Positions 10,156 through 44,937 of a stretch of DNA of 64,000 nucleotides are shown here, in pieces. How positions within the stretch are numbered: position 1 is the first letter of the stretch; the number at the start of each line of letters is the position of its first letter. Under the pieces are notes generated by a model. The model did not search any database, had not been told where the DNA came from, and worked only from the letters and a program-made list of their open reading frames with translations. This DNA comes from Maribacter dokdonensis DSW-8 (GTDB lineage Bacteria > Bacteroidota > Bacteroidia > Flavobacteriales > Flavobacteriaceae): NCBI RefSeq assembly GCF_001447995.1, contig NZ_LDPE01000001.1, forward strand, positions 2,046,001 to 2,110,000. The letters run 5' to 3'. The translations under genes were made by a program, and so were the position numbers.

Positions 10156-10199
10156 GGTGGTAATGGCAATTAGACATGTTCAAGGAAAACACCACAACA

Positions 10200-12022: not shown

Positions 12023-12041
12023 CTCTAAACTTTTTCAACTG

Positions 12042-14710: not shown

Positions 14711-17035
14711 TTAATTGTTCGTAACATCGTTAAAAACAACCATAGGATTTTTAAACTTCTTATTGCGCTTAGCTTCTTCCAAGATTGCCAGATCATCTAA
14801 ATGGGTATAATTCTCACGAACCATAAAAACACAACAATCCGAAAATTTAGAAAGGGCAAGCGTATCTGCCAATGTGCCAATTGGGGCGGAGTCTATGACA
14901 ATATAATCGAAGTCATTTCTTAACTGCTCCATAAATTGAACCATTTGCACTGAATTAAAAGATTCTAGTCCGTCTACTTTTTCGGAACCCAACCCTATGG
15001 CAAACAAATTGTCATTGTTATTTACCGGTACCAGCAAATCGTTGATAGTAATAGTACGGGTTCCTGGCGATAGGTAATTTGAAATACCAATTTCTGAATT
15101 AGCAGCTCCCAATGCCCCCATTAATTCTGGATTGTGCTTATCTAATTCTAAAATCACGACTTTAGAGTTTGAAGAAGCCAGTGCCACCCCAATATTTGAG
15201 GAAAAGAAAGTTTTTCCCTCCCCCTCTTGGGCAGAAGTAACCAAAATAGTTTGCATCTTCTTTTTAGGTAGATGAAAACTCATATTCATACGCATCATTC
15301 TAAAATCTTGAGCCAATCTACTACTCTCCTCTCCCTTTTCAATAAGATTTTTACCTGATGCATTATGTGTTATTTCACCTATTAAAGGCACACTAATTCT
15401 TTTCTGAACATCTTTCTTATCGGCAACTTTAGTATTTAATCCATCCTTTAAATGAACAATACCTACAGGAACGGCAAGACCCAATAACAGGGATACCAAC
15501 ATGAATAGTTTTTTACTAGGAGATTTAGACTCAAAATCAGTAATAGCCTTATCGATTACGGTAAAGTTATCTTGCCTAACACCAACCATTAAAGCCGCCT
15601 CTTCCCTCTTTTGTAATAAGTACAAAAACAAGTTTTCCTTAATACCCTGCTCTCTACTAATTTCCAATAATTGCCTTTGCATTGATGGTATTCTTTGCTT
15701 TTTGGCTGCAAATTGATTGGACCTACTTCTAATACTACCTATAGTACTTCTTAAACTTTGCCTAGATGTAGAAAGGCTACCAAGAATATTTCCTTTCAGC
15801 TGCTGTAACTGATCCCTAATATCGATCATACGCGGGTTGTTCTCAGGAACCGTTCTTTGCAGACTTTTGCGCTCTATCTGTAATCTATTATAATTATCTA
15901 TTAAATACACCAGATTAGGGCTTGATACACTTAAAGAATTTAAAGTAGATTCATTATCCCCATTTCTTAAATTACGGTCTATAGCACTTAAAACTTTTAG
16001 TTCTATTTCAGCTTCGGTCAGTTTTCTACTATAATCTATTTCTTGCTCCGAAAATGAATTTGCATCGAACTCTACATTAGCCAGTTCATTTTCTGTTTTG
16101 AACTGGGCAACATTTTTTTCTACCTCACTAAGCTCTACAGATAATGCATTTAAACGCTCATCAATAAACTTTACGTTATTTAAAGCCATGGCATTTTTCT
16201 CTTGATATGCCTTTATACCATATATCTCAACCAATGTATTTATGATATCCTCGCCTTTCTGAGGATTTTGCTCTTTTAAAACAATGTTGATAACAGAAGC
16301 ATCTTTATTGATTACATACACACTCAATGCTTTTTTCACATAATCGTGTGCCATCTCATCTATATCCCTAAATTCCAATAAAAATTCAGTACCCTTTACG
16401 TTGGACTTTTCATTGGGCACAATCTTAAAAGTTCCATACGGTTTTTCAATTTTGTAACCATAATTATATCTATTATAACCATAACTTGAGCTAATAGAAT
16501 TTGCTGCATCTAAGTCCCCTTCAAAATCTTCCGATATACTAAAACTATCTTTTCCTTCTAACTTAATTTTAATAGAAGTATCATAAGCCGATGGATATAA
16601 GGTGTCTACGACAATTTTAAACGGCAACTCTGAACCATATAGTTCCGTTTCAGAAAAAGTCTCTGGAGTACTAACTTTACACTGCAAGGACAAACTATCT
16701 AAAACAGAACGCATTAAATGCACAGAAGTTAACACCTCAATTTCATTGTTAACCCGCTCTGAATTACTAAACGGATTGTTGCTGACCATGTTATTACCAG
16801 AGGCATCTATATTAGAGGTTTCATTTTTCAATAAGATCTTACTAGAAACCTCATATGAAGAGTTTATAAACTGCAGGGCAAGAGCCGCCAAGCCAATAAA
16901 AATCAGAAGAAACAATAGAAATAGTTTCCATGATTTCAGGTATTTGCCCAACAATGCCTTTACATCAAAATTTTCTTCATTATCAGAAGAAGATAGCCTT
17001 GAGTCAAAATATTCCTTTTCAGTCATTGTATTCAA
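14711..17035 (-). CDS. Wzc-like polysaccharide co-polymerase / BY-kinase without tyrosine tail
   Basis: A 774-aa inner-membrane protein. An N-terminal Wzz domain begins with a membrane helix (FLLFLLIFIGLAALALQF, about residues 38-55), a long periplasmic coiled-coil region follows (about 290-470), and a second helix (LFMLVSLLLGLAVPVGIV) leads to a cytoplasmic P-loop domain. Walker A reads AQEGEGKT, Walker A' LELDKHNP and Walker B YIVIDSAPIG. The protein ends right after PMVVFNDVTNN; the Tyr-rich C-terminal tail that BY-kinases autophosphorylate is missing. It should control chain length and link Wzy to the Wza-like outer-membrane exporter. Loss of the tail means regulation may work on other tyrosines or not through phosphorylation at all. 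Confidence 0.92.
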   Translation of the reverse strand: MNTMTEKEYFDSRLSSSDNEENFDVKALLGKYLKSWKLFLLFLLIFIGLAALALQFINSSYEVSSKILLKNETSNIDASGNNMVSNNPFSNSERVNNEIEVLTSVHLMRSVLDSLSLQCKVSTPETFSETELYGSELPFKIVVDTLYPSAYDTSIKIKLEGKDSFSISEDFEGDLDAANSISSSYGYNRYNYGYKIEKPYGTFKIVPNEKSNVKGTEFLLEFRDIDEMAHDYVKKALSVYVINKDASVINIVLKEQNPQKGEDIINTLVEIYGIKAYQEKNAMALNNVKFIDERLNALSVELSEVEKNVAQFKTENELANVEFDANSFSEQEIDYSRKLTEAEIELKVLSAIDRNLRNGDNESTLNSLSVSSPNLVYLIDNYNRLQIERKSLQRTVPENNPRMIDIRDQLQQLKGNILGSLSTSRQSLRSTIGSIRSRSNQFAAKKQRIPSMQRQLLEISREQGIKENLFLYLLQKREEAALMVGVRQDNFTVIDKAITDFESKSPSKKLFMLVSLLLGLAVPVGIVHLKDGLNTKVADKKDVQKRISVPLIGEITHNASGKNLIEKGEESSRLAQDFRMMRMNMSFHLPKKKMQTILVTSAQEGEGKTFFSSNIGVALASSNSKVVILELDKHNPELMGALGAANSEIGISNYLSPGTRTITINDLLVPVNNNDNLFAIGLGSEKVDGLESFNSVQMVQFMEQLRNDFDYIVIDSAPIGTLADTLALSKFSDCCVFMVRENYTHLDDLAILEEAKRNKKFKNPMVVFNDVTNN

Positions 17036-17104: not shown

Positions 17105-17893
17105 TTAAAAGCTGGCAATAGAAATTACCGCCAATGACAACGAACCTAATATTACCGAGAACCATTGCGTAGCATTAGAAGTATTTCTAACCTTTCTATC
17201 ATTTGGTTGTACGTAAACAATATCATTTGGTCGTAGATAATAGTTTGGTGAAGTAAATAATTCATCTGAAGTAAGATCTATTCTTCTAGTACTTTTAATA
17301 CCGTCTTCCTCACTTATTAATAATACATTATTTCTTTGGGCATATATTGTCATGTCACCCGCCATACCCAAAGCTTCTAGAAGTGTAACTTTTTCATTTG
17401 GTATGGTAAAAACCGCAGGTTGATTTACTTCTCCTAAAACAGAAACTTTAAAGTTCATAAAGCGTATATCAACTATTGGCTCCATCAACAATCTTTTAGA
17501 TATCAACTCTTCTCTTATATATTCTCTCAGTTCTTTCTTTGTAAGACCGGCTACCGCTATTTTGCCCAAAACCGGGAATCTTATAAATCCATCTTGATCG
17601 ATCAAATAACCAGGAGTTTGTATACCGCCTACGTTATTGGCAATATTGAACATCTCGGTTACCTCAGCATTTAAACTGGTAATATTGATACTCAACAAAT
17701 CATTCTTTTGCAAAATGGGCTCTAAGGGCTCATAATATGATGCAAATGTATTATTACCTACTTCATTGAAATAAGATGATTTTTTAGCGCTACCACACGA
17801 TGTCAATTGCAATGCCACAACAAGCAACATTGAAATTTTCAGCAAATAAGATTTAGTGTTGTGAAAGTTAATTGGGGAAATACTAGTTTTCAT
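17105..17893 (-). CDS. Wza-like polysaccharide export lipoprotein
   Basis: A 262-aa outer-membrane lipoprotein. The lipobox is LTSC (Cys at about residue 33), followed by a Poly_export domain (ILQKNDLLSINI, GYLIDQDGFIRFPVLGKI) and an SLBB domain (VSVLGEVNQPAVFTIPNEKVTLLEAL). A hydrophobic C-terminal segment (WFSVILGSLSLAVISIASF) could form the amphipathic helix barrel across the outer membrane, as in E. coli Wza, although this protein is shorter than Wza (about 380 aa). It precedes the Wzc-like gene by 69 bp; the two proteins form the envelope-spanning exporter. The PPTase gene lies 201 bp upstream on the same strand. Confidence 0.93.
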   Translation of the reverse strand: MKTSISPINFHNTKSYLLKISMLLVVALQLTSCGSAKKSSYFNEVGNNTFASYYEPLEPILQKNDLLSINITSLNAEVTEMFNIANNVGGIQTPGYLIDQDGFIRFPVLGKIAVAGLTKKELREYIREELISKRLLMEPIVDIRFMNFKVSVLGEVNQPAVFTIPNEKVTLLEALGMAGDMTIYAQRNNVLLISEEDGIKSTRRIDLTSDELFTSPNYYLRPNDIVYVQPNDRKVRNTSNATQWFSVILGSLSLAVISIASF

Positions 17894-18094: not shown

Positions 18095-18787
18095 TCACCG
18101 AATAGTTTTGAAGAAATTGGAACCCATAAAATCCGCTATTTTTTCTGGGCTTACATGAGTAATCTCCGTACTGGAAAATTCATTTAAATGCTGTGTAGCA
18201 ATATGGCATTTATATTCTGCAGTAAGATCAATTTCTTCTAAGTAAAATATTTCTTCACCTATTGTAGATGATCCGTCAATAATTTCAATAGAATCCAAAG
18301 CTACATTCAAACCGGTTCCATAAGCTTTTAAAACTGCTTCCTTCTGTGTCCAAAATTCAAAAAACTTTTCTTGCACATGTAAAGAACCAACCATATTGTC
18401 ATATTCCGATTTTGAGAATTGTAATCTAAAATCATTTATATCTACATTACTTATTTTCTCTACATCTACACCTATACCTCCATGAGACGTAAATGCACAA
18501 ACTATAAAATCATTTGAATGGGAGATGTTAAACTGAACCTCAGAATTATCTAAAAAAGGTCGTTTATCTTTAGAATATTCAATGGCAATATCATCGACAT
18601 TAATGTTATAGAATTTTTGTAAACCATATGCCAACAACAGTCTGCCTAAAATAGTAGACTTAGCATCTTGCCATCTTTTATATTTCGAATATTTAAGCAC
18701 AAATTCTTCAGGAAATTTCTCTTGTGCCTGCGCAAAGAAAATTTCATTGTCAATAGGTGTTAAGCTAGTACATAAAAGATGTGTCAT
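18095..18787 (-). CDS. 4'-phosphopantetheinyl transferase, Sfp type
   Basis: A 230-aa Sfp-type PPTase that converts apo carrier proteins to the holo form by moving phosphopantetheine from CoA to the conserved Ser. Visible motifs are FNISHSNDFIVCAF (P1 region), GIGVDVEKI (Mg-binding Asp and Glu) and FWTQKEAVLKAYGTGL (the WxxKEA signature). Length fits the Sfp subfamily rather than AcpS. It starts 39 bp after the stop of the NRPS-PKS gene on the same strand and almost certainly activates the three carrier domains encoded by this cluster. It has no FAL or other fused domain. Confidence 0.95.
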   Translation of the reverse strand: MTHLLCTSLTPIDNEIFFAQAQEKFPEEFVLKYSKYKRWQDAKSTILGRLLLAYGLQKFYNINVDDIAIEYSKDKRPFLDNSEVQFNISHSNDFIVCAFTSHGGIGVDVEKISNVDINDFRLQFSKSEYDNMVGSLHVQEKFFEFWTQKEAVLKAYGTGLNVALDSIEIIDGSSTIGEEIFYLEEIDLTAEYKCHIATQHLNEFSSTEITHVSPEKIADFMGSNFFKTIR

Positions 18788-18826: not shown

Positions 18827-21800
18827 CTAAATATCAATTTTTAAATAGCCATTTTCTTTTGTGGCATCTGCTACGTACCATGCTGGCTGCCCATTCTCAT
18901 CTCTACCTAAACGAGCACCTGGCACAGGTGGTGTGTTCAATCTCTCAAAAGAATTTTGCATTGTAACGGCATGCCCATTGGTTTCCTTTTTTAATATCCC
19001 AACAGTTACCAATTCATCAATGGAATCTAAAAGTGTTTTCTTCAAAAAGTCCACATCCTCATTGGTATATGCCGTTGTTAAAAAGCAAGGGAAGCCATCC
19101 CAAATATGTATCCCTTTCTCTCGCATAATTACAAACAGTAATTCCGAATACGGAATTTCTTTCTTAAACTTTATCCTCCATAAAGACCCAAAATAATTGA
19201 TCTCTAATGGCAGCCCTTTTTTAGCAAAATTTTCATTTAAACTAACCACCATTTGTTCAGTCATGGCAGAAACATTTGCCTGCAAACTTGGTCCTTGTTC
19301 TTTCATATGGAGCAAAGCCGCCTTTGCAGAGGCTAATGCCAAAGGATGGCGAACAAAAGTACCGGCAAAATAAGTAACCCCAACTTCTGGGTAAGAATCA
19401 TCTCCATACTGCCAAAAGCCGCCATCAAGTGCATCCATATACTCTTTTTTACCCAATATAGCACCGATGGATACACCACCACCTATGACCTTACCATAGG
19501 TTGCAATATCCGCCTTAACATCAAAAAGGGCCTGGGCACCACCCGGATGCATTCTAAAACCGGTAATAACCTCATCAAAAATAAATGGTATTTCTTCGGC
19601 TGCAGTTATTTCCCTTACTTGCTTTATAAATTCTATGGGTTGAAATTCCGGTCTACGGCTCTGTACCGGTTCTACAAGAACGGCCGCCACTTCATGTGCT
19701 CTATCTTTAATAATCTGCAAGCTTTCCTCAGTACCGTAATCAAGGATCAACATATTTTGAACCGCTTCTGGTAGTATCCCTGCTGCAGCCGGAAAAGTTT
19801 TCTTTTTCTGGGTTCCCCTTACGATACCCTCATCATTAATTCCGTGGTAAGACCCCGTAAAAGCAATAATAAGCGAACGCCCGGTTACGGTACGTGCAAT
19901 CCTCATGGCACCCAATACAGCTTCTGACCCTGTATTACATAAAGCAGCCCTGTCATGACCTGTAAACTCTAAAAGTAAATCACACACTTCACCAGCCAAC
20001 GGATGTTGCGGCCCAACTTCATATCCTAGATCCACTTGTTTGTGCATTGCCTCTTTAATAAAATCTGGCTGGTACCCAAAGAAACACGAACCAAACCCGT
20101 TCAAAGCATCTATATACCGGTTGCCGTCTAGGTCCCAAAGTCTATTTCCCTGAGATTTACCGATCACTATGGGATATACCAAATCTTTGGTCAATGGTTT
20201 GAAACCCGACACCACTCTTGGATCTGCCATTTTTGCCCTGTGATTCTGGGCATAATTTTTACTGCCAATGGTTTTCTTGTTATATCTAGCAGTCAATTCA
20301 TTTAAGTATTGAGACTGAGCTTGATCTAAACCGGTTGTTTGCTTTTCTATTCTTGGTGAAGCTCCAAACGGTTTTTTATGTTCTTGTTTTTCCTGTTCCG
20401 TACGTATATCCATACTACTTGCACCATTGACCTTTTCTGGTTGTTGAGGAGCACTTGGCGCAACACTTGGTTGTACAGTAGCTACCGATCCACCTTGTAA
20501 AAGCTGTAATTGCTTGCTAAGCAGTTGAAGTTGCTCCCCAATTAGACCAATAGCCGTTTGGTTACCAGCAGCGGTAGCATATTGGGCTGCGTTATTTTCT
20601 TGAACCTGATGTACTGCAACTGTAGGCTGTTGAACCACTTGTGGTTGTGGCTTTAGAACTTCTTCAGGTAAATTAGCATCTAAATAGCTTGCTAAAAGTT
20701 CTGGTGTATTAATATCCTCATTAAGCTGTCTAAATGTAATTGGAATTTTAAATTCTCTCTTACAAGTAATAGCCATTTGAGTAAGGATAAGGGAATCTAA
20801 CCCTAGTTCTAAAAAGCTTAGATTTTTGTCATTGGCTTCAATTTCAATACCATAATTGTTTGAAACTAACTCCGAAATTTTATTTAAAATGGTCACGTTT
20901 CTCATTGGTGTAACGCTTTTTGGTTTTTCTGTTAAGGTCTGTATTGTTGGATTGGTATGAACACTAGTCCTTTCAATTTTTGATTGAGTGACAATAGGGT
21001 CTATCCAACATGGTTTTCGGTCAAACACATAGGTAGGCAATCTTAATCTATGTCTGCCCTGTTTGTCATAAAAACTAGTCCAATCTATGGTTATACCCGT
21101 TAACCATAATTGTCCTAAGGCATTAAGTACGCCGTGGTAATTATTTTCATTGGTTTTAGGCACCGGTAATGAAGCTATAGACTTAATTTTTCTTGCCTGT
21201 TTGTTCTGACGACTTAGCGTAGTAAGAGTATTACCCGGACCTACTTCTAACAATACCACATCTTCTAATTTCACTAAGGTATCCATAGCATTAGAAAATT
21301 TTACGGTATCGCGTAAATGATTGGTCCAATATATGGGATCCAGGGCCTCCTCATTGGTCAGCCAAGTACCTGTTACCGTAGATACTATGGGTATCTTTGG
21401 AATATTTAAATCGATATTTTCGACAATAGCGCCGAACTCCTCTAAAATAGGGTTCATCATTGCGGAATGAAAAGCATGGCTTGTAGCTATTAATCTATAA
21501 GGCAAATTTTCTTCCTTAAGTACCTCTGCAAATTTTTCAATTTCATTATCCTCACCAGAAACTACACAAAGTTTATGGGAATTAACAGCGGCTACAGATA
21601 AGGTTTTTGGCAATATTTTATGGAGCGATTCTTCATCTATACGAACGGTGAGCATACTACCTTTAGGAAGTGTACTTACCAAAATACCCCTCAAGGAAAC
21701 CAGTTTTAATGCATCTTCCAAGCTAAAAATGCCAGCCAGATGAGCCCCAACAAACTCCCCTAAACTATGACCGCAAATTACGGTAGGTTGAATTCCCCAA

Positions 21801-24800
21801 CTAATCCATAATTGAGATAGTGCATATTCTATGGTAAACAACGCCGGCTGTGTAAACCGTGTATCGCGAAGCTTATTTTCCGCTTCCTCGTTTAAAGATT
21901 CCGGGAAAATTATTTTTCTGATATCCAACTTTAGGGTGTCCAGCAACAAGTTGGCACATTTATCCACAGCATCTTTAAATACACCTTCGCTACTATACAA
22001 CTCCTTGCCCATGTTCAAAAACTGGGAACCTTGCCCTGGAAATAAGAACGCCACTTCATTAGCAACTGCCCTAACTACTGACGATTGTGCTGTTTTATTA
22101 TCTTTATCAAACAGTACATCTGAAGCCTCTTTAGTGTTCGATGCCAATATAAACCTTCTAGTACCAAAACTAGCTTTAGTAGTACTCAGCGTATAAGCCA
22201 CATCTGCTAAATTCTCCTCTTTATCAGCATCAAAATGAGCTTTCAAGGCACTTTCATAACCCTCTAAACTTGTATTCGTTTTTGCGGAAATAGGTAAAAG
22301 CTGTACCGGTCTTTGTTGCACAGGCTCTTTTACCTTCATCTCATATTCTTCTAATACCACGTGTACATTGGTACCTCCAACGCCAAAAGAACTTACCCCG
22401 GCTCTTCTCGGACCTTCTACGTCCCATGAAGCCAAAGTATTGTTTACATAAAACGGACTATTATCAAAATCTATTACCGGGTTAGGTTTTTCATACCCTA
22501 AAGAAGGTGGTAATTGTTTATGGTTAAAGGCCAATATCGTTTTAATCAAACCAGTTACACCTGCCGCAGCGGTAAGGTGGCCCATATTACTTTTTACCGA
22601 ACCTAGTCCACAATAGTTTTTCTTGGATTGCTCGCCAAAGGCAAGGTTGAGTCCGTCCATCTCAATAGGATCTCCTAAAGGCGTGGCCGTACCATGAGCC
22701 TCTACATAGCTAATGGTTGCAGGTGAAATACCGGCATCATTAATAGCGCTCCTAATAGCGTTGGCCTGCCCTTCTGCGCTAGGAGCCGTAAAGCTACCCT
22801 TGCCACCGCCATCATTGTTAATACCTACACCCTTAATCACTCCATATATAAAATCCCCATCCTTTTTAGCTTCCTCCAAATCCTTTAAAACAACCACTCC
22901 TGCACCATCGCTGAACACGGTTCCTTTTGCTTGAGAATCAAAAGGTCTACAATGACCGTCTGTACTGAGCATTGATCCTTCTTGATACAAATGACCACTA
23001 TTAATTGGTGCCGTTATACTAGAGCCCCCAGCGAGAGCAACCTCACAATGTCCATTTCTAATAGCTTCGACCGCTTCGGCTATAGCCAGCAAAGATGTGG
23101 AGCATGCGGATTGTACACTTACCGCCGGACCTTTTAAATCTAAATGATAAGCCGTTCTTGATGATATATAGTCCTTTTCATTTACCGTATCCAGTTGTAG
23201 CTGACCAACGGACTCTATCAATTCATGGTTCGGTAAAATGTTCTTTTGATAATACGTATTGGTACCCGTACCGGCATAGACCCCAACCCTACCGTTATAA
23301 TGTTCCGGAAGATGACCAGACTCTTCAAGTGCTTCCCATGCAAGCTCTAAAAACAAACGTTGCTGAGGATCCATGGCCGCCGCATGTTTAGGCGTTAAGC
23401 CAAAGAAACGCGCATCGAACATTTTAACAGAAGGCACTACACCTCTTGCAGCTACGTACAAGCTATCATTTCTTAAGGTTTCAGGAATACTTTGGTCCAA
23501 TTCTTCTTTGGTGAAAAATGAAATAGTTTCCTTTCCATTTTTTAAGACCTCCCAAAATTCATCAATATTCTTGGCTCCGGGAAATCTGCCCGTCATACCA
23601 ATAACGGCAACATCGTTAGATGAAGCATTATTTTTCTCTTTTCGCTTATTGGATAATATAGCTGGTTCTTTGTCGCCTTCTATAAATTTTACAAGTGCTG
23701 CAATGGTCGTATGTTGATAGAGCTTGGTTACCGGAATTCTCTTGTTCAGGGTTTTCATAATGGCATTTACGACTTTTTGTGCCATGAGCGAGGTACCGCC
23801 CATTTCAAAAAAGTTATCATCAACACCAATACCGGAAAGTTTTAATTCCTTTTCCCAAATAGCAGCTATACTCTTCTCTACCTTGGTACGTGGTTTTTTA
23901 AAGATCACATCTGAATTTGACCTTAGATACCCGGGAGCCGGTAGCTTTTCCTTATCAATTTTCCCATTAGAGTTTGTAGAAAACTCATCTACCCACATTA
24001 AAAAAGTGGGGACCATAAATTCTGGTAACTTGTTGACAAGCGCTAGTCTAATACCGGTCATTTCAGGTTTCTCACCAACAGCCTGCATATATGCTACCAA
24101 TCTGGTTTCACCTTCCTCATTTGTATTTGGCAACACCACAGTACGTTCAATACCGTCTAAAGCATTAATGGTAGATTCTATTTCCCCTAATTCTATACGG
24201 TGTCCACGAATTTTAACTTGATGGTCAATTCTGCCAATATATTCTAGAGTACCATTTGAAAGTCTTCTTACCAAATCTCCCGAGCGATACATTTTTTGCC
24301 CAGGTTCAAAAGGATTCGCAATAAACTTTTCACTGGTCAATTCCGATCTATTTAAATAACCTCTTGCCAATCCAAGACCTGAAATGCACAGTTCACCTAT
24401 AACCCCTACAGGTTGTAACTGGTTTTTGGTATTCACTACATGTGAAGTTAACGATGACACACAATTACCAATATTGGAAACATTGGTTCTTACATCCTCA
24501 TCATCAATGATTTTAAATGTTGTAAATATGGTAGTTTCGGTAATACCGTAGCCGTTTACAAATTGAATACCCGGAAATTTACGGTACCATTTTTCTAAAT
24601 ATTTTGGAAACAATGCCTCACCACCAAAAATGACGTATCGCAATTTCAGATCGATATCACCTGAAGGTAAGCTACCCATGATATTTAAAAATGATGATGG
24701 TGTTTGGTTCAGAATGGTCACCTTTTCTTTTATGAGCAAGGACATAAATTCAAAAGGATCCTTGATCACTTCACTGGAAGGAATTATCAATTTACCCCCA

Positions 24801-26194
24801 AACAACAACGCTCCGTAAATCTCCCAAACAGAAAAATCAAAACAGTACGAATGGAACATGGTCCAAACATCGTTCTCATTGAAATCATAGAAAGGATCAT
24901 CATTAACAAATAAACTAACGATATTTCTATGTTCTAACATGACACCTTTAGGATTACCTGTAGTTCCTGAAGTGTAAATGATATAAATCAAGTCGTTAGG
25001 CAATAGCACTATACCTGTTAATGGGGCAGTTGTAAAACTAGCTTTAGTTGCCTTGAACTCTTCAATTGCTGCGGCATCTACCGTTATATTGCAATTGCTA
25101 TCGTTTTTAATATATTCTTTGCGTTTTTCTGGGTAGTTTGGGTCAACAGGCACGTATGCGGCACCAGTTTTCATAATCCCCATCATACCAATAATTAGCC
25201 ATTCACTCCTATCTAGAATCAAGCAAGCCAGGTCCCTTGGTTTAACCCTTTTTTTTTGAATTAAATAATTTGCAAATTGATTGGACAGCTCATCTAACTC
25301 CCTGTACGTTATTGTATGCTCCTCAAAGGCTACAGCTATACGATCTGGAGTTTTTAGAGCCTGCTCCTTAAGCAAATCAACCACGGTTTTATCCGTTGGA
25401 TAGTCTACGGTAGGTGTATTGAATTCAGTTAACAATATTTCACGCTCCTTATCTAAAAGAAAATCTATACTTCCTATTTCAGAAGTTGAATTTTCCATTA
25501 ATGGAGAAATGATGCTCATATAATGCATCATAAACTGTTCAATAAAACTATTTTCAAATACCGCATCATTATATACGACATCTAACCTAATAGTATCAGC
25601 ATTAATCTCAAGATTAATTTCCAAATTAGATTTGACATATACTTCACCTATCCTTTTAATCTCATTGAACGTATCAATATCATTAGAGACAGAAGTATCA
25701 TCAGTCTTTCTAGCGTTAATGGAAAGCACGACATCTTGTAGTGCATTGTGACCATTGGTATCGATTAAATTAAAATCTACCAATAACTTTTCAGAAGGAT
25801 AAAAATTTTCTTGATTTAGCGATAACCTTTCAGTAGTGTCTTTATTTACCCTATTAAAGTTATATTCAGCCTCAATGATATTTCTAAATAAAGATAGATT
25901 TTGATCTAACAATAGTCCAAAAGCAATATCATTCTGATTTGTATACCTATGAAAGAGTACAGCTAATGCAGAAATTGCAAAAGTCGTTATTTCATTAGGG
26001 GAAGAAGTATTTGATTTCAAATTACCAGACAACTGTTCAGAAAAATAAGTACGCAACAAAACCCCTTTTGAAGCGGTATCGTTTACTTTTAAATTTCTAT
26101 TGGGCAAGTCAAGCAATTTTATGTCGTCTGACAATAAATTTTCCCAATAGATTTTAGCGCTACTGGAAACAGCCCCTTTATTTTTGGCATTCAT
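18827..26194 (-). CDS. Hybrid NRPS-PKS: C(partial)-A-PCP-KS-AT-ACP-aminotransferase
   Basis: A 2455-aa multienzyme. Order by residue: C-terminal half of a condensation domain without HHxxxDG (about 10-255); adenylation domain with YTSGTTGNPKG (about 405) and NGKIDKEKL; PCP with GGTSL (about 800); ketosynthase from about 858 with Cys in QSACSTS (1030), His in EAHGTATP (1167) and in GHLTAAAG (1206); malonyl-type acyltransferase with GHSLGE (1477) and HAFH (1573); ACP with LGLDSL (1800); Gln/Pro-rich linker; and a class III PLP aminotransferase (about 1990-2400) with DEVITGFR and the Schiff-base Lys in TYGKVIGGG. No ketoreductase, dehydratase or thioesterase is present. My reading of the A-domain pocket is D-F-W-N-I-G-G-I-F-K, threonine-like in the first six positions. 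Chain passes to the terminal NRPS. Confidence 0.95.
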   Translation of the reverse strand: MNAKNKGAVSSSAKIYWENLLSDDIKLLDLPNRNLKVNDTASKGVLLRTYFSEQLSGNLKSNTSSPNEITTFAISALAVLFHRYTNQNDIAFGLLLDQNLSLFRNIIEAEYNFNRVNKDTTERLSLNQENFYPSEKLLVDFNLIDTNGHNALQDVVLSINARKTDDTSVSNDIDTFNEIKRIGEVYVKSNLEINLEINADTIRLDVVYNDAVFENSFIEQFMMHYMSIISPLMENSTSEIGSIDFLLDKEREILLTEFNTPTVDYPTDKTVVDLLKEQALKTPDRIAVAFEEHTITYRELDELSNQFANYLIQKKRVKPRDLACLILDRSEWLIIGMMGIMKTGAAYVPVDPNYPEKRKEYIKNDSNCNITVDAAAIEEFKATKASFTTAPLTGIVLLPNDLIYIIYTSGTTGNPKGVMLEHRNIVSLFVNDDPFYDFNENDVWTMFHSYCFDFSVWEIYGALLFGGKLIIPSSEVIKDPFEFMSLLIKEKVTILNQTPSSFLNIMGSLPSGDIDLKLRYVIFGGEALFPKYLEKWYRKFPGIQFVNGYGITETTIFTTFKIIDDEDVRTNVSNIGNCVSSLTSHVVNTKNQLQPVGVIGELCISGLGLARGYLNRSELTSEKFIANPFEPGQKMYRSGDLVRRLSNGTLEYIGRIDHQVKIRGHRIELGEIESTINALDGIERTVVLPNTNEEGETRLVAYMQAVGEKPEMTGIRLALVNKLPEFMVPTFLMWVDEFSTNSNGKIDKEKLPAPGYLRSNSDVIFKKPRTKVEKSIAAIWEKELKLSGIGVDDNFFEMGGTSLMAQKVVNAIMKTLNKRIPVTKLYQHTTIAALVKFIEGDKEPAILSNKRKEKNNASSNDVAVIGMTGRFPGAKNIDEFWEVLKNGKETISFFTKEELDQSIPETLRNDSLYVAARGVVPSVKMFDARFFGLTPKHAAAMDPQQRLFLELAWEALEESGHLPEHYNGRVGVYAGTGTNTYYQKNILPNHELIESVGQLQLDTVNEKDYISSRTAYHLDLKGPAVSVQSACSTSLLAIAEAVEAIRNGHCEVALAGGSSITAPINSGHLYQEGSMLSTDGHCRPFDSQAKGTVFSDGAGVVVLKDLEEAKKDGDFIYGVIKGVGINNDGGGKGSFTAPSAEGQANAIRSAINDAGISPATISYVEAHGTATPLGDPIEMDGLNLAFGEQSKKNYCGLGSVKSNMGHLTAAAGVTGLIKTILAFNHKQLPPSLGYEKPNPVIDFDNSPFYVNNTLASWDVEGPRRAGVSSFGVGGTNVHVVLEEYEMKVKEPVQQRPVQLLPISAKTNTSLEGYESALKAHFDADKEENLADVAYTLSTTKASFGTRRFILASNTKEASDVLFDKDNKTAQSSVVRAVANEVAFLFPGQGSQFLNMGKELYSSEGVFKDAVDKCANLLLDTLKLDIRKIIFPESLNEEAENKLRDTRFTQPALFTIEYALSQLWISWGIQPTVICGHSLGEFVGAHLAGIFSLEDALKLVSLRGILVSTLPKGSMLTVRIDEESLHKILPKTLSVAAVNSHKLCVVSGEDNEIEKFAEVLKEENLPYRLIATSHAFHSAMMNPILEEFGAIVENIDLNIPKIPIVSTVTGTWLTNEEALDPIYWTNHLRDTVKFSNAMDTLVKLEDVVLLEVGPGNTLTTLSRQNKQARKIKSIASLPVPKTNENNYHGVLNALGQLWLTGITIDWTSFYDKQGRHRLRLPTYVFDRKPCWIDPIVTQSKIERTSVHTNPTIQTLTEKPKSVTPMRNVTILNKISELVSNNYGIEIEANDKNLSFLELGLDSLILTQMAITCKREFKIPITFRQLNEDINTPELLASYLDANLPEEVLKPQPQVVQQPTVAVHQVQENNAAQYATAAGNQTAIGLIGEQLQLLSKQLQLLQGGSVATVQPSVAPSAPQQPEKVNGASSMDIRTEQEKQEHKKPFGASPRIEKQTTGLDQAQSQYLNELTARYNKKTIGSKNYAQNHRAKMADPRVVSGFKPLTKDLVYPIVIGKSQGNRLWDLDGNRYIDALNGFGSCFFGYQPDFIKEAMHKQVDLGYEVGPQHPLAGEVCDLLLEFTGHDRAALCNTGSEAVLGAMRIARTVTGRSLIIAFTGSYHGINDEGIVRGTQKKKTFPAAAGILPEAVQNMLILDYGTEESLQIIKDRAHEVAAVLVEPVQSRRPEFQPIEFIKQVREITAAEEIPFIFDEVITGFRMHPGGAQALFDVKADIATYGKVIGGGVSIGAILGKKEYMDALDGGFWQYGDDSYPEVGVTYFAGTFVRHPLALASAKAALLHMKEQGPSLQANVSAMTEQMVVSLNENFAKKGLPLEINYFGSLWRIKFKKEIPYSELLFVIMREKGIHIWDGFPCFLTTAYTNEDVDFLKKTLLDSIDELVTVGILKKETNGHAVTMQNSFERLNTPPVPGARLGRDENGQPAWYVADATKENGYLKIDI

Positions 26195-26673
26195 ATTTTA
26201 CTTAATGCTATAATTATCTACTAAGTTCGAGTACTTATCAAATTGCAAATGCCCAAAACATACTGCATGGATTATTGAATAGGTTAAAAGAAAATTGTTT
26301 TGTGCTAAAAGCTTCAACAAGCATACCTATTTTTATAAAATATTTGAATGTATCATTGAACATTATAATAGTAGTAAAATTAGTGAATCTATTGTATAAA
26401 TAAGATTTCAGCTAACAGCAATCAATGAACCATTTCAATCAAAATTAGATTACAAGCAATTGATTATCAATCAATTAAAAAATTATACGTCATCTACAAC
26501 TGAAACATAAATTATTTCATTCCTATAATTTCATCGAATAAAAAAAGACGTTCTTCGATATACAATTTCACCCAAATATGACTAGGTAGATGAACTGTGT
26601 TATATTTAAGATAATCGGCGATTTCAAATAGATATATTGTTTATTTTCACAAGTAAATTATAACAAGGTTAAA
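26195..26673. other. Divergent intergenic region of the NRPS-PKS cluster
   Basis: 479 bp between the divergent NRPS-PKS and methyltransferase starts; it must hold both promoters. On the minus strand TAATTTTG (26447 to 26440) matches the -7 box. An 8-bp perfect inverted repeat, AATTGATT/AATCAATT with a 3-nt spacer (26458-26476), sits where its -33 region would be and could be an operator. No ORF or terminator is visible. Confidence 0.4.
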
Positions 26674-27531
26674 ATGAAAGGAAAGCTTATACATCTCATA
26701 GGTGACTTACTCATATTGTTGATGCCAAAAAAAGCTAAGAAACTTGCAAAAACCGGCATGACAATTACCGATAGAAATAAAATTACCCTAATTGAGCTTT
26801 TTATGCGTAAGTCGCTATTAAAAAAAGTAGAGGATAAATCAGACTACAACACACTATCAGAATTTCATAAGGCATATTGGAAAAACAAAGGAGATGACTT
26901 CTTTACGGCCACCGATGACTCCTTTGAAAAAAACTTCTTACCCGAATGTTCTTTTATGTTTGACCTTTTAAAGAACAAATTATCTATAGAAGAGGAAGGT
27001 TTTAATACCCTAGTGGAGATTGGAACCGGCAACGGAAAAGTTTTAAATTATTTAAGCGAACAATTTCCACAAATAGACAGGTTCGTAGGTATTGACCTAA
27101 GTGAAAATCAAATAATTAGAAACCAAAAAACATACAGCAGGAACCAAAAACTTGAGTTTGTTGCCTGCGATGCTTTTGATTGGGTAAACACGTATGCCAA
27201 TAAGAATATGATTTTTGTAACTTCTAGAGGTGTACTTGAATACTTTACCGAAAGTAAGCTCCTAGACTTTTTACAACAGATAAATAGATTAGGAAACACC
27301 ATTTTTATAGCTATTGAGCCTAATGGAGTTAACCATGACCTTAATGCTAATACCGGTTCAGAGCCATATGGGTATGAGCGTTCATTTTCCCACAATTACA
27401 AGGTGCTTTTTAAGAAAGCTGGTTTTACATTATGGCATAGCTCAATAAAAGACAGCACCCTTGATCACTATTTTAGTTATATGGGTGCTGATAATTATAG
27501 TAAAAAAGCTGTAATGGTAGCCTTAAGATAG
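26674..27531 (+). CDS. SAM-dependent class I methyltransferase
   Basis: A 285-aa protein with a Rossmann-fold methyltransferase domain: motif I is LVEIGTGNGKVLNYL (about residue 110), motif II FVGIDLSENQI, and a post-I acidic CDAFDW. About 80 residues precede motif I and include a basic hydrophobic start (KLIHLIGDLLILLMPKKAKKL), perhaps a membrane-associated helix. It is divergent from the NRPS-PKS gene and convergent with the terminal NRPS gene (26 bp between stops), so it lies inside the cluster and may methylate the peptide product on O or N. This is inference from location; it carries no signature that fixes the substrate. Confidence 0.85.
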   Translation: MKGKLIHLIGDLLILLMPKKAKKLAKTGMTITDRNKITLIELFMRKSLLKKVEDKSDYNTLSEFHKAYWKNKGDDFFTATDDSFEKNFLPECSFMFDLLKNKLSIEEEGFNTLVEIGTGNGKVLNYLSEQFPQIDRFVGIDLSENQIIRNQKTYSRNQKLEFVACDAFDWVNTYANKNMIFVTSRGVLEYFTESKLLDFLQQINRLGNTIFIAIEPNGVNHDLNANTGSEPYGYERSFSHNYKVLFKKAGFTLWHSSIKDSTLDHYFSYMGADNYSKKAVMVALR

Positions 27532-27556
27532 TCTGGTATGGCTATCATTTTTACAC

Positions 27557-30500
27557 CTAGTTATTTTTATCTAGAACGTTTTGGAGCGTCTTTGACAAAA
27601 TTTTATCATTAGGTGGTGAAAACATTGTTAAATGCTCTCCGGGTACATAATGAACTTCTATACCATTTTTGGCATATGATTTCCAACCCAAATTTTTAGG
27701 ATCATGGGTATAATCAATTACATCTTGTATTCTGAACAGATCTGCCTTAATGGGCAAAGGTTTTAAATGGTATTTATCCACGACCTTATTGTGTTCAATA
27801 ATTCTGCTTTCATATTCCCAATCGTAATCCATTTTAGACAAGGTATTCTTATCCTTTTTCAACCTTAGATAAAACTTCTTTAAGTTCGCCTTTGTTACAC
27901 CTACTCTATAATTAAAGCCCTCTCTGCTTAACAACAATTGTTTTAGTACATGCAAAGCCTTATTTGCTATATAATTACCAAATGCCAATTTTTTACCCAA
28001 ATATGTATTACGCCCATAATGTGCATACGCATAGGTATCTAATAATGCCAAGGTAGATATCTGTTCTCCTCTGTCCATCAACTGCTTTGCCATTTCATAA
28101 GCAATAATACCCCCAGAGGAATAACCCGCTAATTTATACGGTCCTTTAGGTTGTGTTGCCAATAACGCATCATTATAATGAGATGCTATTTCTTCTACAG
28201 AAGTCAACATAGCTTCTTTACCGTCAAGACCTTTTGCCTGAAAACCATAAATGGGTTGCTCTGGATCCATATGGTCCTTTAGGGTTTTAAACGAAAGAAT
28301 ATTTAAACCTGCTCCATGAACAATGAACAAAGGGGTCTTAGAACCTTTTGGCTGTATTGGAACCATAGAATCCCAGGTTACGGTATTTTCTTCTATTTTT
28401 AATAAACTAGCCAGTCCTCTAACCGTAGAATACTCAAACAATGAAGAAAGAGGTAAGCGTTGACCGGATTTTTGCTCCAAACTGGTCATTACCTTGGCAG
28501 CTATTAATGAATGCCCGCCGAGCTCAAAGAAATCATCATTTGGATGTACTTGGTTTAAAAACAAGCATTCTTTCCATACTTCACAAACCAATTCTTCTGC
28601 TTTTGTTAATGTCCGAGTAGGTTCATTTATATTGGCTTCGCCATTTAAAACAGTATCGGGCAGGCTCTTTCTATCTAATTTGCCGTTTATGGTCACCGGC
28701 AATTCCTTTAATCTTATATATTCAAAAGGCAACATAAAAGAAGGCAATTCCTCGGCAAGTTGATTTTTCCATTCCAACACACTTGCATCCCAATCCTCAT
28801 TACTTCCATTAAAAACAATATATGCTTTTAAAGCATGATTTCTAACATCTGTTGCAGCAGCTGAAACTCCCTTTAATTTCAGTAGAGCGTGTTCTATCTC
28901 GCCAAGCTCAATTCTATGACCACGAACTTTTACTTGACCATCTTTCCTACCCAAACACTCTATTTGACCGTTAGGCAAAAGTTTACCTAAATCGCCCGAT
29001 AAGTACATTTTAGATTGCCCGTCACCAACAAACGTATTATTCACAAAACGCTCATTAGTTAGTTCTCTTTGACCTAAATACCCGTTTGTTACTCCCTCAC
29101 CGCCAATAACGATCTCACCTACCATACCTTTTGATACAGGATTTCGCTGATCATCCAGGAGGTAAATTTGAGTATTGGCAATAGGCTTACCTATTGAAAT
29201 AGGATTATCGTTTGCCGTAATTTTAGTAAGTATACAGCATACCGTGGTTTCGGTAGGGCCATAAATATTCCACACTTCATTACATTTTTCCAATAATTGT
29301 AATGAAAGTGCTTTAGGCACAGGTTCTCCACCGATCAATGCTTTTATAGGTAATGGTTTTTCCCAACCGGAATCCAGTAAAATCTGCCAAATGGTTGGCG
29401 TTCCCCACATTATGGTAATATTATCGGCAATTGCTTTTTGCAATAAAAGATGTCCGTCTTTTCTAGTCTTTTCATCTACCAATACTACACTGGCTCCGTG
29501 GATTAATGGCAAAAATATCTCCATGACCATAGCATCAAACGAAATGGTCGTAGTTGCGAATATTCTATCATGTTCTGAAATACCAGGCTCAGAACCCATT
29601 GAATATAACAAGTTAATCACATTTTTATGCGTTACCTGTACACCTTTAGGTTTGCCCGTAGATCCCGAAGTATAAATGATAAAGGCACCCGAATCTGCAG
29701 ATACATCTATTTTCTGAAAATCCTCATTCCCGTTGGCTACCATATCCTCCATGAAAATTGTTTGACAACTGTGATCCAGCGCCTTCTTAGATGTAGTGCA
29801 AATGAAAAAAGTGGCATGAGCATCTGCTATCATCAGTTTTGTACGAACATCTGGATAACCGGTATCTATAGGAATATATCTAGCTCCACATTGTAATATG
29901 GAAAATAGCGTAATAATTAAATCTGGAGATCTTTCTAAGGAAATTGCAACCGTAACCCCTGGCTTAATGCCTTTTTGCCACAAATAACCGGCTGTAGCAT
30001 TGATCCTACTTTGCATTTCTGCATAGGTAATTTTCTCTTTATTAAACTCCAGTGCAGTTGCATTTGGGGTAATTTCAGCTTGTTTATGGAATAACTCGTG
30101 TAAGTTGGTATTTGGTAAAGCCATTGAAGCACCTTCAATACCGATCTGCTTTGGTTCTTTATCAATTATTTCAGATAGTTTGGCATTAGGGTTTTCAACC
30201 AACTGGTTAATAATGGTCTTAAAAGCACTACCTAAGTTTAGTATCGTGTTCTCTTCAAATAAGTTGGTATTGTAAGACCACTCAAGTGTTATATTATCAT
30301 TGGAGCCTGTAGCATTCAAGAACAATTCAAAAGTTTCGAAATTACGAGCATTACTATGATAATCATAGGTTAACCCTTCAAAAGCAACATCATCATCTAA
30401 ATTCATGTCCACATTAAAAACAACAGGAACCAAGGGAACCCTACCTGGTGTTCTAGGGATGTTCAGTTTTTTCAACAGGCTACCAAAGGTGAGTTCTTGA

Positions 30501-31516
30501 TTTTCGAACGCATCAAAATTGTCAGATTTTCGTTTCTTTAAATAATCAATAAAACTATCATCATCATTAAGCTCACTTTTCATAGGAAGCAGCTTAACGC
30601 AATGACCCACTAAATTTTTAACGCCCATGTTAGATTGCCCCGCAACAGGAAGCCCTAGCACTATACTTTTTTGAGCCGTAGTTTTGTAGAGCAATATTTC
30701 AAATGCGCCCATTAAGGTCAAAACTAAACTAGAACCAGCTTTAATACCAGTATCTTTTATGCGCTTTACAATTTCTTTATCTAAAGTTTGATTTATACGA
30801 GCACCGTTATAGGTTCTTTTCGTTACTTGTCCAAAATCGGTAGGTAAATTTGTTTTGGGAATCTCACCTTTAAAAAGGTTCAACCAGTACGTTTCAGCTC
30901 TTTCAAACTCGCCATTGGTTTTTAATTCCTCTTGTTGAGTCACATAGGCAGTGTACGGTGTTGCAACCGGAAGATTATGAGATTTATGGAGTACTTTAGA
31001 CGAATATAGCGCGCCTATTTCCTGCATAATAATGCCAACGGACCATCCGTCGCAAACAATATGGTGTGCGGTAATTGTAAAATTATAAACTTCCTCATCA
31101 AGTTTAAGCAGTGCAAACCTGATCAATGGTCCTTTGGTAAGATCAAAAGAAGTATTCGTATCCTGTTCAGTATAATTATGTATTGCCTCCTTGGCTTTCT
31201 CAACTGAAAGTTGGCTATAATCCACCAGGTCGATATTAGTAAACACCGATGAAAAAACGTTAATATACTTACCATCCGGGCTAAATGAAGATCTTAGTGA
31301 CTCATGACGCGCAATCAATTCATCTACCGCCAATTGCAAAGCATTTACATTGAGCTGTCCTTGCAATTTTATAGTAAGGGAAAGGTTGTAAGCAATATTT
31401 GCCGCCTCACCACCAAAATAACAAGAATACCAAATTTCCTCTTGCGCATCGGTCGTTTGCAAAATATGCTTAATCTCAGGTCCTTCAAAAGGATTAAAAG
31501 GTGTTAAAACTTCCAA
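27557..31516 (-). CDS. Terminal NRPS module C-A-PCP-TE
   Basis: A 1319-aa module. The condensation domain carries an intact HHIVCDG (about residue 150). The adenylation domain has YTSGSTGKPKG (about 617), IYGPTETT and NGKLDRKSLP; my reading of its pocket is D-A-M-W-L-G-I-V-C-K, mostly hydrophobic with no confident substrate. The PCP has GGHSL (about 999). A type I thioesterase (about 1060-1319) has the oxyanion strand FIVHGAG, nucleophile GYSSGG (about 1134) and His in GEHLTMF (about 1294). It would accept the beta-amino acyl chain from the hybrid protein, condense it with the second amino acid, and release the product by hydrolysis or cyclisation. It converges with the methyltransferase gene. 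Confidence 0.95.
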   Translation of the reverse strand: MEVLTPFNPFEGPEIKHILQTTDAQEEIWYSCYFGGEAANIAYNLSLTIKLQGQLNVNALQLAVDELIARHESLRSSFSPDGKYINVFSSVFTNIDLVDYSQLSVEKAKEAIHNYTEQDTNTSFDLTKGPLIRFALLKLDEEVYNFTITAHHIVCDGWSVGIIMQEIGALYSSKVLHKSHNLPVATPYTAYVTQQEELKTNGEFERAETYWLNLFKGEIPKTNLPTDFGQVTKRTYNGARINQTLDKEIVKRIKDTGIKAGSSLVLTLMGAFEILLYKTTAQKSIVLGLPVAGQSNMGVKNLVGHCVKLLPMKSELNDDDSFIDYLKKRKSDNFDAFENQELTFGSLLKKLNIPRTPGRVPLVPVVFNVDMNLDDDVAFEGLTYDYHSNARNFETFELFLNATGSNDNITLEWSYNTNLFEENTILNLGSAFKTIINQLVENPNAKLSEIIDKEPKQIGIEGASMALPNTNLHELFHKQAEITPNATALEFNKEKITYAEMQSRINATAGYLWQKGIKPGVTVAISLERSPDLIITLFSILQCGARYIPIDTGYPDVRTKLMIADAHATFFICTTSKKALDHSCQTIFMEDMVANGNEDFQKIDVSADSGAFIIYTSGSTGKPKGVQVTHKNVINLLYSMGSEPGISEHDRIFATTTISFDAMVMEIFLPLIHGASVVLVDEKTRKDGHLLLQKAIADNITIMWGTPTIWQILLDSGWEKPLPIKALIGGEPVPKALSLQLLEKCNEVWNIYGPTETTVCCILTKITANDNPISIGKPIANTQIYLLDDQRNPVSKGMVGEIVIGGEGVTNGYLGQRELTNERFVNNTFVGDGQSKMYLSGDLGKLLPNGQIECLGRKDGQVKVRGHRIELGEIEHALLKLKGVSAAATDVRNHALKAYIVFNGSNEDWDASVLEWKNQLAEELPSFMLPFEYIRLKELPVTINGKLDRKSLPDTVLNGEANINEPTRTLTKAEELVCEVWKECLFLNQVHPNDDFFELGGHSLIAAKVMTSLEQKSGQRLPLSSLFEYSTVRGLASLLKIEENTVTWDSMVPIQPKGSKTPLFIVHGAGLNILSFKTLKDHMDPEQPIYGFQAKGLDGKEAMLTSVEEIASHYNDALLATQPKGPYKLAGYSSGGIIAYEMAKQLMDRGEQISTLALLDTYAYAHYGRNTYLGKKLAFGNYIANKALHVLKQLLLSREGFNYRVGVTKANLKKFYLRLKKDKNTLSKMDYDWEYESRIIEHNKVVDKYHLKPLPIKADLFRIQDVIDYTHDPKNLGWKSYAKNGIEVHYVPGEHLTMFSPPNDKILSKTLQNVLDKNN

Positions 31517-32949: not shown

Positions 32950-34062
32950 ATGAAAGTAGCATTAATCACAGGAGTAACAGGTCAAGACGGCGCTTATTTG
33001 AGCGAATTTTTACTAAAAAAAGGATACCAAGTTCACGGACTTAAAAGAAGAGCTTCTCTTTTCAATACTGATAGAATAGATCACCTTTATCAAGACCCAC
33101 ATGTTGAACATAGAAATTTTGTACTTCATTATGGTGATATGACCGATAGTACTAACCTGATTAGATTAATACAAGAGATTCAACCTGACGAGATATATAA
33201 CCTTGCGGCCATGAGTCACGTTCATGTATCATTTGAAGTTCCTGAATATACAGGAAATGCGGATGGATTAGGTACTTTAAGAATATTGGATGCAGTTCGT
33301 CTACTAGGGCTAGAGAAAAAAACAAGAATCTACCAGGCGTCTACTTCAGAATTATACGGTAAGGTACAAGAGGTACCACAATCTGAAACTACTCCTTTTT
33401 ACCCAAGAAGTCCCTATGCAGTTGCAAAAATGTATGCATTTTGGATTACGGTAAATTACAGGGAAGCATATAACATGTTTGCTTGTAACGGTATTTTATT
33501 TAACCATGAGTCGCCCATTAGAGGGGAAACTTTTGTTACCCGAAAAATTACTAGAGCTGCGGCACGGATTGGTCTAGGGCTACAGGACAAAGTATACTTA
33601 GGGAACTTAGATGCACAGCGTGATTGGGGCCATGCCAAAGATTATGTACGTATGATGTGGATGATTTTACAGGCAGACGAACCAGAAGACTGGGTTATTG
33701 CTACTGGTAAAACTACTCCGGTTAGAGAATTTGTACGAATGGCATTTGCAGAAATGGGTGTTGAAATAGAATTTAAAGGTGAAGGTGTTAATGAGAAAGG
33801 ATATGTAAAATCTTGTAGCAACCCAGAAATTCAACTAGAAATTGGCAAAGAAGTACTAGCTGTAGATCCTAAATATTTTAGACCAACAGAAGTAGAATTG
33901 TTAATTGGCGATGCTACAAAAGCAAACACCAAATTAGGATGGATCCCGGAATATGATTTACAAGGCTTGGTAAAGGATATGATGGTACATGACCTAAAAC
34001 TAATGAAGAAAGACCAATACTTGAAAGAAGGCGGCTATGTAACTTATAACTATTTTGAGTAA
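32950..34062 (+). CDS. gmd: GDP-mannose 4,6-dehydratase
   Basis: A 370-aa extended short-chain dehydrogenase. NADP-binding [15 protein letters not shown] begins at residue 7, HGLKRRAS contacts the cofactor, and the catalytic residues lie in [10 protein letters not shown] and [13 protein letters not shown]. The C-terminal [19 protein letters not shown] and [18 protein letters not shown] are diagnostic for Gmd. It converts GDP-D-mannose to GDP-4-keto-6-deoxy-D-mannose in the cytoplasm. The fcl gene follows 33 bp later, so the pair makes GDP-L-fucose for the surface polysaccharide. Confidence 0.98.
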
Positions 34063-34095
34063 GAAATAAACAATTATTCAAGTTAAAATTTCAAA

Positions 34096-35187: not shown

Positions 35188-35227
35188 TTGTCATTTACCT
35201 ACAGATTTCTATCAAACTCAAATTTAC

Positions 35228-35261
35228 CTGTTATCCATTGGTTGACACCAATGGATAACAG
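35228..35261 (+). promoter_or_regulatory. Intercistronic stem-loop after fcl
   Basis: CTGTTATCCATTGG (35228-35241) and CCAATGGATAACAG (35248-35261) form a perfect 14-bp stem with a 6-nt loop. No T-run follows on the plus strand, so it is not a classic terminator. It may stabilise the gmd-fcl transcript end, attenuate read-through into the phosphotransferase gene, or act as a processing site. Confidence 0.5.
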
Positions 35262-35308
35262 TAATAACCTATCATTAGCTCTTAAACCAACCATTATTAA
35301 AAGCTGAA

Positions 35309-44933: not shown

Positions 44934-44937
44934 AATT

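Follow-up and report, generated by a model that had tools for sequence, protein, structure and literature searches.

Which product might be built by the hybrid line of nonribosomal peptide synthetase (NRPS) and polyketide synthase (PKS) modules encoded in Maribacter dokdonensis DSW-8, and which role does the class III aminotransferase domain (AMT) play in it? The DNA analysed (64,000 nucleotides, positions 2,046,001 to 2,110,000 of contig NZ_LDPE01000001.1, assembly GCF_001447995.1; hereafter the window) carries on its minus strand a line of two proteins, P0001 (2455 aa) and P0002 (1319 aa), for which the original prediction, made from the sequence alone, had proposed the construction of a 3,4-diamino acid dipeptide. 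We consider it rather probable, judging by the domain content, that this is an amino-acid-primed line, in which an aminoacyl-derived beta-keto thioester is aminated to a 3,4-diamino acyl unit and the latter is joined to a second amino acid. The components of the line are as follows (A, adenylation; C, condensation; PCP, peptidyl carrier protein; KS, ketosynthase; AT, acyltransferase; ACP, acyl carrier protein; TE, thioesterase; PLP, pyridoxal phosphate).

18827..26194, minus strand: P0001, half-C followed by A-PCP-KS-AT-ACP-AMT
25430..26194, minus strand: C-terminal part of a C domain without HHxxxDG, probably a remnant (Pfam and motif check)
23900..25387, minus strand: A1 domain, code DFWNIGGIFK, Thr-like (code alignment, A-core tree, published Thr code)
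23681..23869, minus strand: PCP1, GGTS (Pfam, motif)
22493..23617, minus strand: KS with Cys-His-His motifs (Pfam, motifs, PDB matches)
21092..22048, minus strand: AT of malonyl type, GHSLG and HAFH (Pfam, motifs)
20720..20893, minus strand: ACP, LGLDS (Pfam, motif)
18995..20227, minus strand: AMT, PLP-binding Lys in YGKVIGGG (Pfam, motif, tree)
18095..18787, minus strand: 4'-phosphopantetheinyl transferase (PPTase), starting 39 bp after P0001 (Pfam)
27557..31516, minus strand: P0002, C-A-PCP-TE, TTG start
30167..31465, minus strand: C domain, HHIVCDG (Pfam, motif)
28679..30091, minus strand: A2 domain, code DAMWLGIVCK, probably aliphatic, with a core of position-1 type (code alignment, A-core tree)
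28400..28591, minus strand: PCP2, GGHS (Pfam, motif)
27617..28333, minus strand: TE, GYSSG (Pfam, motif)

The predicted domain string was confirmed by Pfam and motif searches, which additionally revealed the half-C at the N-terminus of P0001; the original prediction had also left unmentioned the PPTase gene, the plus-strand position of the methyltransferase gene and the setting of the cassette in an exopolysaccharide locus. Pfam recognized in P0001 AMP-binding (residues 276-614), PP-binding (776-838), ketoacyl synthase N and C (860-1234), Acyl_transf_1 (1383-1701), a second PP-binding domain, the ACP (about 1768-1825), and Aminotran_3 (2007-2364, E 1e-48), and in P0002 Condensation (18-450), AMP-binding (476-814), PP-binding (976-1039) and Thioesterase (1062-1300). 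The catalytic motifs are intact in P0001 (KS ACSTS, EAHGT and KSNMGH; AT GHSLG and HAFH; PCP GGTS; ACP LGLDS; AMT YGKVIGGG) and in P0002 (C HHIVCDG; TE GYSSG). Residues 1-255 of P0001 correspond to the C-terminal part of a C domain, the best stretch being profile positions 312-455 of 456 at residues 116-254; the motif check found no HHxxxDG in P0001, and the half-C shares only 44% identity with its orthologue in genome G286, whereas the A core, KS and AMT of the same pair are 84-87% identical. Because of this, the half-C is most likely a remnant and A1 the loading module. P0001 is under purifying selection against other Maribacter (pN 0.12-0.16 and pS 0.68-0.72, as proportions of nonsynonymous and synonymous differences, in four comparisons with synonymous sites near saturation). 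No Rfam match at the gathering score was found in 17000-33500.

From this organization we infer the following course, including substrates, mode of release and site of methylation. The carrier domains would be armed by the PPTase; A1 would load a Thr-like amino acid onto PCP1, and the KS would join the loaded aminoacyl group with one malonyl unit supplied by the AT, yielding 4-amino-3-oxoacyl-ACP. The AMT, acting in cis and probably using Gln, the donor reported for MycA, would transaminate the beta-ketone to a 3,4-diamino acyl thioester, predicted to carry the 3,4-diamino-5-hydroxyhexanoyl unit if A1 takes Thr. P0002 would couple this unit to the second, probably aliphatic, amino acid, and the TE would release the resulting vicinal-diamine pseudo-dipeptide in free or cyclised form. 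The methyltransferase P0003, encoded between P0001 and P0002, would then methylate the product, perhaps on an amine, either to tailor it or for self-protection. The logic of starting from an amino acid, extending it with one malonate, transaminating in cis, adding one further amino acid and releasing the chain by the TE is supported by the domain order, the intact motifs, the AMT phylogeny and the recurrence of the order across genera. To that extent the originally predicted dipeptide logic stands, while the product itself is a prediction.

Amination of a carrier-bound beta-ketone by the AMT is supported, without being proved, by the phylogeny of the domain and by the presence of its Lys motif, together with the HAFHS of the AT, in 120 of the 120 homologues among the matches listed. 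The best solved relative of the AMT is that of MycA (PDB 6kfm, 377 bits), the best glutamate-1-semialdehyde aminomutase (GSAM) reaching 158 bits. When compared with two HemL models, the domain scored 223 bits (cut-off 527) and 225 bits (cut-off 398), i.e., far below both, while the genome's own HemL (L005) passed them with 614 and 641 bits. In a tree of 77 rows, of which several outer branches are long according to the tool's warning, 68 assembly-line AMTs including MycA and BamA were split at 100/100 from the remaining nine, which comprise three GSAM-like rows and six class III enzymes encoded in the same genome as the window, among them L005. The grouping with GSAMs, which had been named as one of three possible refutations of the prediction, was thus not observed, and identity of the AMT with a GSAM is rejected by the bit scores, the failed HemL cut-offs and the split in the tree. 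As in the ACP-linked beta-aminotransferases of MycA type, the class III AMT stands in cis after an ACP and is nearer to MycA than to GSAM; the following C domain sits on the separate protein P0002, the AMT itself being on P0001. The BamA AMT is 42% identical to that of the window, and the AMT is among the best conserved domains of the line (64-87% identity among the 14 best rows compared).

The line does not stand alone but belongs to a large and wide bacterial family. When the AMT region was used as the query, 7937 of the 8000 proteins scored fell below 1e-3, and among the 120 matches listed 103 are 2150-2350 aa and 12 are 2400-2500 aa long. Genome searches, which scored a limited number of first-look candidates so that misses are possible, detected the AMT in 16 of 397 Flavobacteriaceae genomes and 15 of 237 genera (1e-100), in 18 of 395 genomes of the phylum (1e-90; 13 with at least 60% identity), and in 18 of 36 genomes of the genus, 12 at 85-100% and six at 68-72% identity; by these two bands the genus holds both the window version and the common version. 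The layout was seen in 14 of the 16 positive Flavobacteriaceae genomes, the match in G270 lying on a 6-kb contig where the layout was not read, and G019 (41% identity) having another architecture. Further carriers are Mucilaginibacter and Pedobacter (Sphingobacteriaceae), Akkermansiaceae contigs and, on plasmids, Spirosoma, Variovorax and rhizobia. Spirosoma and Variovorax have the first protein; Akkermansiaceae and rhizobia show a rearranged order.

Both window proteins show the domain order A-PCP-KS-AT-ACP-AMT plus C-A-PCP-TE that defines the family. Among 47 loci with AMT identity of at least 57%, PCP-KS-AT-ACP-AMT was found in 46, the remaining locus being cut off; a separate TE protein is encoded on 44, of which 36 are collinear, with the TE protein following the first one, and eight, all Thr-type Maribacter, have it in front; and a PPTase is encoded on 40. 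Domain strings based on BLAST can overlook diverged domains, as in the rhizobial C-PCP protein, in which Pfam recognized a TE. The stretches examined of G749 and Spirosoma showed no second (TE) protein, and in G536 both proteins are fused into one. Outside the cassette, most of the distant loci differ from one another in their neighbouring genes. Four contigs from Akkermansiaceae and Verrucomicrobia metagenome-assembled genomes (L043, L044, L045, L047), some cut by contig ends, bear a split version, A-PCP followed by KS-AT-ACP-AMT-C-A(Gly-type). One family protein, P0050, is recorded as a protein of the isopod Idotea baltica, and the source flags it as contamination; it probably derives from an associated bacterium.

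The substrate codes were read by aligning the A domains to the window A1, at positions which we take to correspond to those of GrsA; in some loci the codes are missing or partial. The A1 code, DFWNIGGIFK, looks Thr-like, differing at three of ten positions from DFWNIGMVHK, the code for Thr in a cyanopeptolin line (PMC2533009) and predicted for Thr in the zeamine cluster (PMC3547906). Relatives have Pro-type, DAMW-type and other A1 codes, while their KS and AMT remain 62-77% identical to those of the window (non-Maribacter relatives among the best 14 listed), as would fit a constant chemistry that accepts varying starters. A cupin/JmjC oxygenase is encoded on five of 15 Pro-coded loci (G299, G360, G173, G524, G618) and on none of 44 others with readable A1 (p 6e-4, with unequal flanks and phylogeny ignored); its confinement to these loci agrees with the Pro reading of their codes. 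At the second position, a Gly-type code (Gly being specified by DILQLGMIWK; PMC12283262) prevails, being present in 36 of the 60 loci that have AMT identity of at least 45% and a readable A2 (loci not independent); the 24 others include eight Maribacter. The window A2, DAMWLGIVCK, lacks this majority trait, and its code gave no match in the open-access literature searched; since it resembles Val-type codes such as DALWIGGTFK, the substrate of A2 is probably aliphatic.

P0002 of the window is a mosaic. Its C, PCP and TE are closest to the second protein of the relatives, while its A core is 66-70% identical to the position-1 A domains of three relatives and 49-55% identical to the listed position-2 domains. 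In a tree of 107 A cores, the seven Maribacter A2 rows shared a 100/100 clade with position-1 domains only (DAMW-type and two similar), and the remaining 46 A2 rows were placed apart. (This tree leaves out G019, BamA, Planktothrix, Nostoc, Jannaschia, L030, L037, L040, G785, G791, Variovorax RA8 and cores below 180 residues.) By these placements, A-domain cores have been exchanged between the modules of the line. The clade seems nested, with weaker support, inside the Gly-type A2 group, which suggests that cores moved between positions more than once.

The gene of P0003, recognized by Pfam and linked to the line by co-occurrence, separates the genes of the two assembly-line proteins:

26674..27531, plus strand: S-adenosylmethionine-dependent methyltransferase P0003, a likely dedicated partner of the line

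Its homologues (E up to 1e-20) were found in 13 of 397 genomes of the family, all 13 of which also have the AMT match (Fisher p 7e-22, phylogeny ignored). In the genus, 16 of 17 carriers of the methyltransferase have the line; G790 has the methyltransferase only, while G286 and G795 have the line only, with the reservation that these searches, too, scored a limited number of candidates and may have missed some. The gene lies about 35-40 kb from the line in G796 and on another contig in G800, so linkage alone does not explain the pairing, and the methyltransferase is likely a dedicated partner of the line. A distant homologue (HMM E 4e-50, 25% identity) adjoins the Aliiroseovarius line; the HMM had no match in the Sphingobacteriaceae loci examined. 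Among solved structures its profile is closest, weakly (4e-6), to the plantazolicin-type BamL and BpumL, enzymes which methylate an amine; action of the window enzyme on an amine would be a guess by this analogy. A second, unlinked homologue with 46% identity is present in the window's own genome (G000:C1:454968-455792). Besides, an apparent membrane protein of about 265 aa recurs beside the line in G288, G134, G299, G066, G786 and Aliiroseovarius, where a role in self-protection is possible; one member scanned had no Pfam match.

Among known systems, the AMT of mycosubtilin (MycA) and bacillomycin (BamA) synthetases belongs to the same clade and likewise stands after an ACP and before a C domain. 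These lines start from a fatty acyl group. Their product unit is a beta-amino fatty acid, instead of the 3,4-diamino acid predicted for the window. In Aliiroseovarius sp. M344 (L152), similarly to the window, A-PCP-KS-AT-ACP-AMT-C-A-PCP-TE is accompanied by a PPTase and the same methyltransferase family; however, the line is fused into one protein of 3.4 kaa, both A codes are Val-like, the AMT is 47% identical, and the whole set lies in an exopolysaccharide (EPS) locus of a plasmid. The lines of Rhizobium, Sinorhizobium and Loktanella keep the same order, split into A-PCP and KS-AT-ACP-AMT-C-A(Gly-type)-PCP, but have an additional C-PCP protein, in which Pfam detected a TE in the case of SL42; the window methyltransferase HMM had no match at 1e-4 in these loci. 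The closest published layout is Pedobacter heparinus C6XWU5, listed in Table 2 of Milano et al. (2013; PMC3870968) as A-CP-KS-AT-CP-PLP1 with the predicted product Nrp-Mal-Gly-Pk and no named product, i.e., the domain order of P0001 minus the half-C; it is a catalogue entry, the pertinent parts of which give no product, partner genes or family distribution. A survey of Flavobacteriaceae (PMC10734526) counts NRPS-PKS hybrids, and its passages on them do not describe the window line. No characterised product or cluster of identical layout was found in the open-access literature, MIBiG and subscription journals being outside the search. The original prediction knew of no described flavobacterial product of this logic, and none came up within that literature; the layout itself was catalogued in 2013, and the family proved to be large.

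Several observations weigh against the proposed diamino acid chemistry. The KS matched various PKSs in the PDB, which do not single out a substrate clade; the three differences of A1 from the Thr code and the lack of a published match for the A2 code make both substrates guesses. The gene order is not collinear, as the NRPS-TE gene precedes that of P0001, in reverse of the assembly order, in the window and seven other Thr-type Maribacter loci. A free vicinal diamine thioester could cyclise early. Finally, the methyltransferase is absent from three of the 16 AMT-positive genomes of the family, G286, G173 and G019, the last having the other architecture mentioned above.

The cassette sits inside an EPS locus, the neighbouring genes of which are given below.

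17105..17893, minus strand: Wza-like polysaccharide export protein (Pfam), membership in the system uncertain
14711..17035, minus strand: Wzc/Wzz-like chain-length protein (Pfam)
7497..14671, strand not given: rest of the EPS operon, with a 420-aa protein (13409) and a 311-aa protein (10200) (no Pfam match), a Wzx-like flippase (12042), a GT2 glycosyltransferase (11132), a beta-helix protein (8719) and a WecG-type glycosyltransferase (7497)
32950..36655, plus strand: GDP-mannose 4,6-dehydratase, epimerase and bacterial sugar transferase

The same line could serve to decorate the EPS of the surrounding Wzx/Wza/Wzc locus with an acyl-amino acid instead of releasing a free small molecule, which we regard as unlikely. 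The cassette lies within an EPS locus in 8/8 Thr-type Maribacter loci examined, as well as in Kriegella. Each of the six annotated plasmid loci examined from alpha-proteobacteria (Rhizobium SL42, CCGE532, Aliiroseovarius, Loktanella, Rhodobacter CZR27, Jannaschia) adjoins, as does the related line of Variovorax VAI-C, polysaccharide export, kinase, flippase or glycosyltransferase genes; weaker or farther matches in Bacteroidota are those of G299 (Wzc at 10.5 kb and Wza at 12.8 kb), G490 (Wzc-like, 1e-13, at 7.4 kb) and G643 (Wza-like, 6e-17, at 0.6 kb). However, Wza/Wzc within 10 kb at E<1e-30 was found in 0/24 of the other Bacteroidota loci flanked by 10 kb at each end, and among 15 loci with shorter flanks in Kriegella only; from the density of Poly_export genes, such a neighbour would be met by chance in about 1% of loci. 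Moreover, the last domain of the line is a TE, and there is no evident transferase that would attach the product to sugar. Consequently, a general EPS link in Bacteroidota, as a decoration system would imply, is unsupported by the fully flanked non-Maribacter loci, and in view of the linkage in the Thr-type Maribacter, Kriegella and alpha-proteobacterial loci EPS decoration is kept as a rival and not as the preferred reading. No EPS genes were found beside the annotated Nostoc and Planktothrix loci, nor on the short BamA stretch. The AMT-containing lines recorded beside EPS-type genes are L108, L151, L152, L153, L155, L156 and L111 (six alpha-proteobacterial plasmids and one Variovorax plasmid).

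It is quite unlikely that the product is a metal-binding metabolite that would chelate copper, zinc or nickel through its vicinal diamine together with amide and carboxylate. The predicted chemistry would suit metal binding, and annotated genes of a copper ATPase, copper oxidase or cupredoxin are present within about 15 kb on Spirosoma pSLIN02 and two Variovorax plasmids (L106, L107, L110); these amount to no more than three loci, all on plasmids, where metal genes are common, and two of the three are close relatives. The remaining loci were not searched for copper genes, and the window neighbours scanned include no metal importer.

Still more doubtful is that the AMT stays idle before release, so that the 4-amino-3-oxo thioester would cyclise or pass on to a tetramate-like, pyrrolinone-like or keto product. 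Although 4-amino-3-oxoacyl chains are known to cyclise readily, the strong conservation of the AMT and the invariance of its Lys motif described above argue against an unaminated product, as do the absence of a Dieckmann-type release domain by Pfam and the C domain that follows. An ordinary beta-amino acid line of the iturin/microcystin type, which would be primed with a lipid or polyketide and share an AMT of the same family, can practically be dismissed, as the window line has one KS only and lacks the fatty or polyketide starter introduced by an acyl ligase, its loading domain being an amino-acid A domain (TIGR01733, 409 bits, cut-off 317) with a PCP; this also agrees with the early claim that the starter differs from those of the known lines.

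Elsewhere in the window, a PLD-like gene and a C5 DNA methyltransferase-like gene beside tRNA-Leu (47800-50480) look by eye like a restriction-modification island, and a DnaE-like polymerase gene beside a DinB-like one (41904-46573) is possibly a mutagenesis cassette, also judged by eye.

Returning to the amino-acid-primed line with beta-ketone amination, we tentatively propose, with somewhat less assurance than for the window itself, a phylum-crossing family of minimal lines that would make vicinal-diamine pseudo-dipeptides via transamination of an aminoacyl-derived beta-ketone, diversified by natural exchange of A cores even between both positions of one line and tied in Flavobacteriaceae to a dedicated methyltransferase that would tailor or detoxify the product. 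If the chemistry is right, such lines would provide a short route to 3,4-diamino acids, which are aminostatine-like. Aminostatine units are used by chemists as statine analogues; the open-access literature searched gave no match for aminostatine, and no natural line for 3,4-diamino acid units was found described there. The fixed KS-AT-ACP-AMT core with interchangeable A domains would represent a natural record of A-domain swapping, useful to NRPS engineers, and the recurring product family may be sought in marine Flavobacteriaceae by mass spectrometry.

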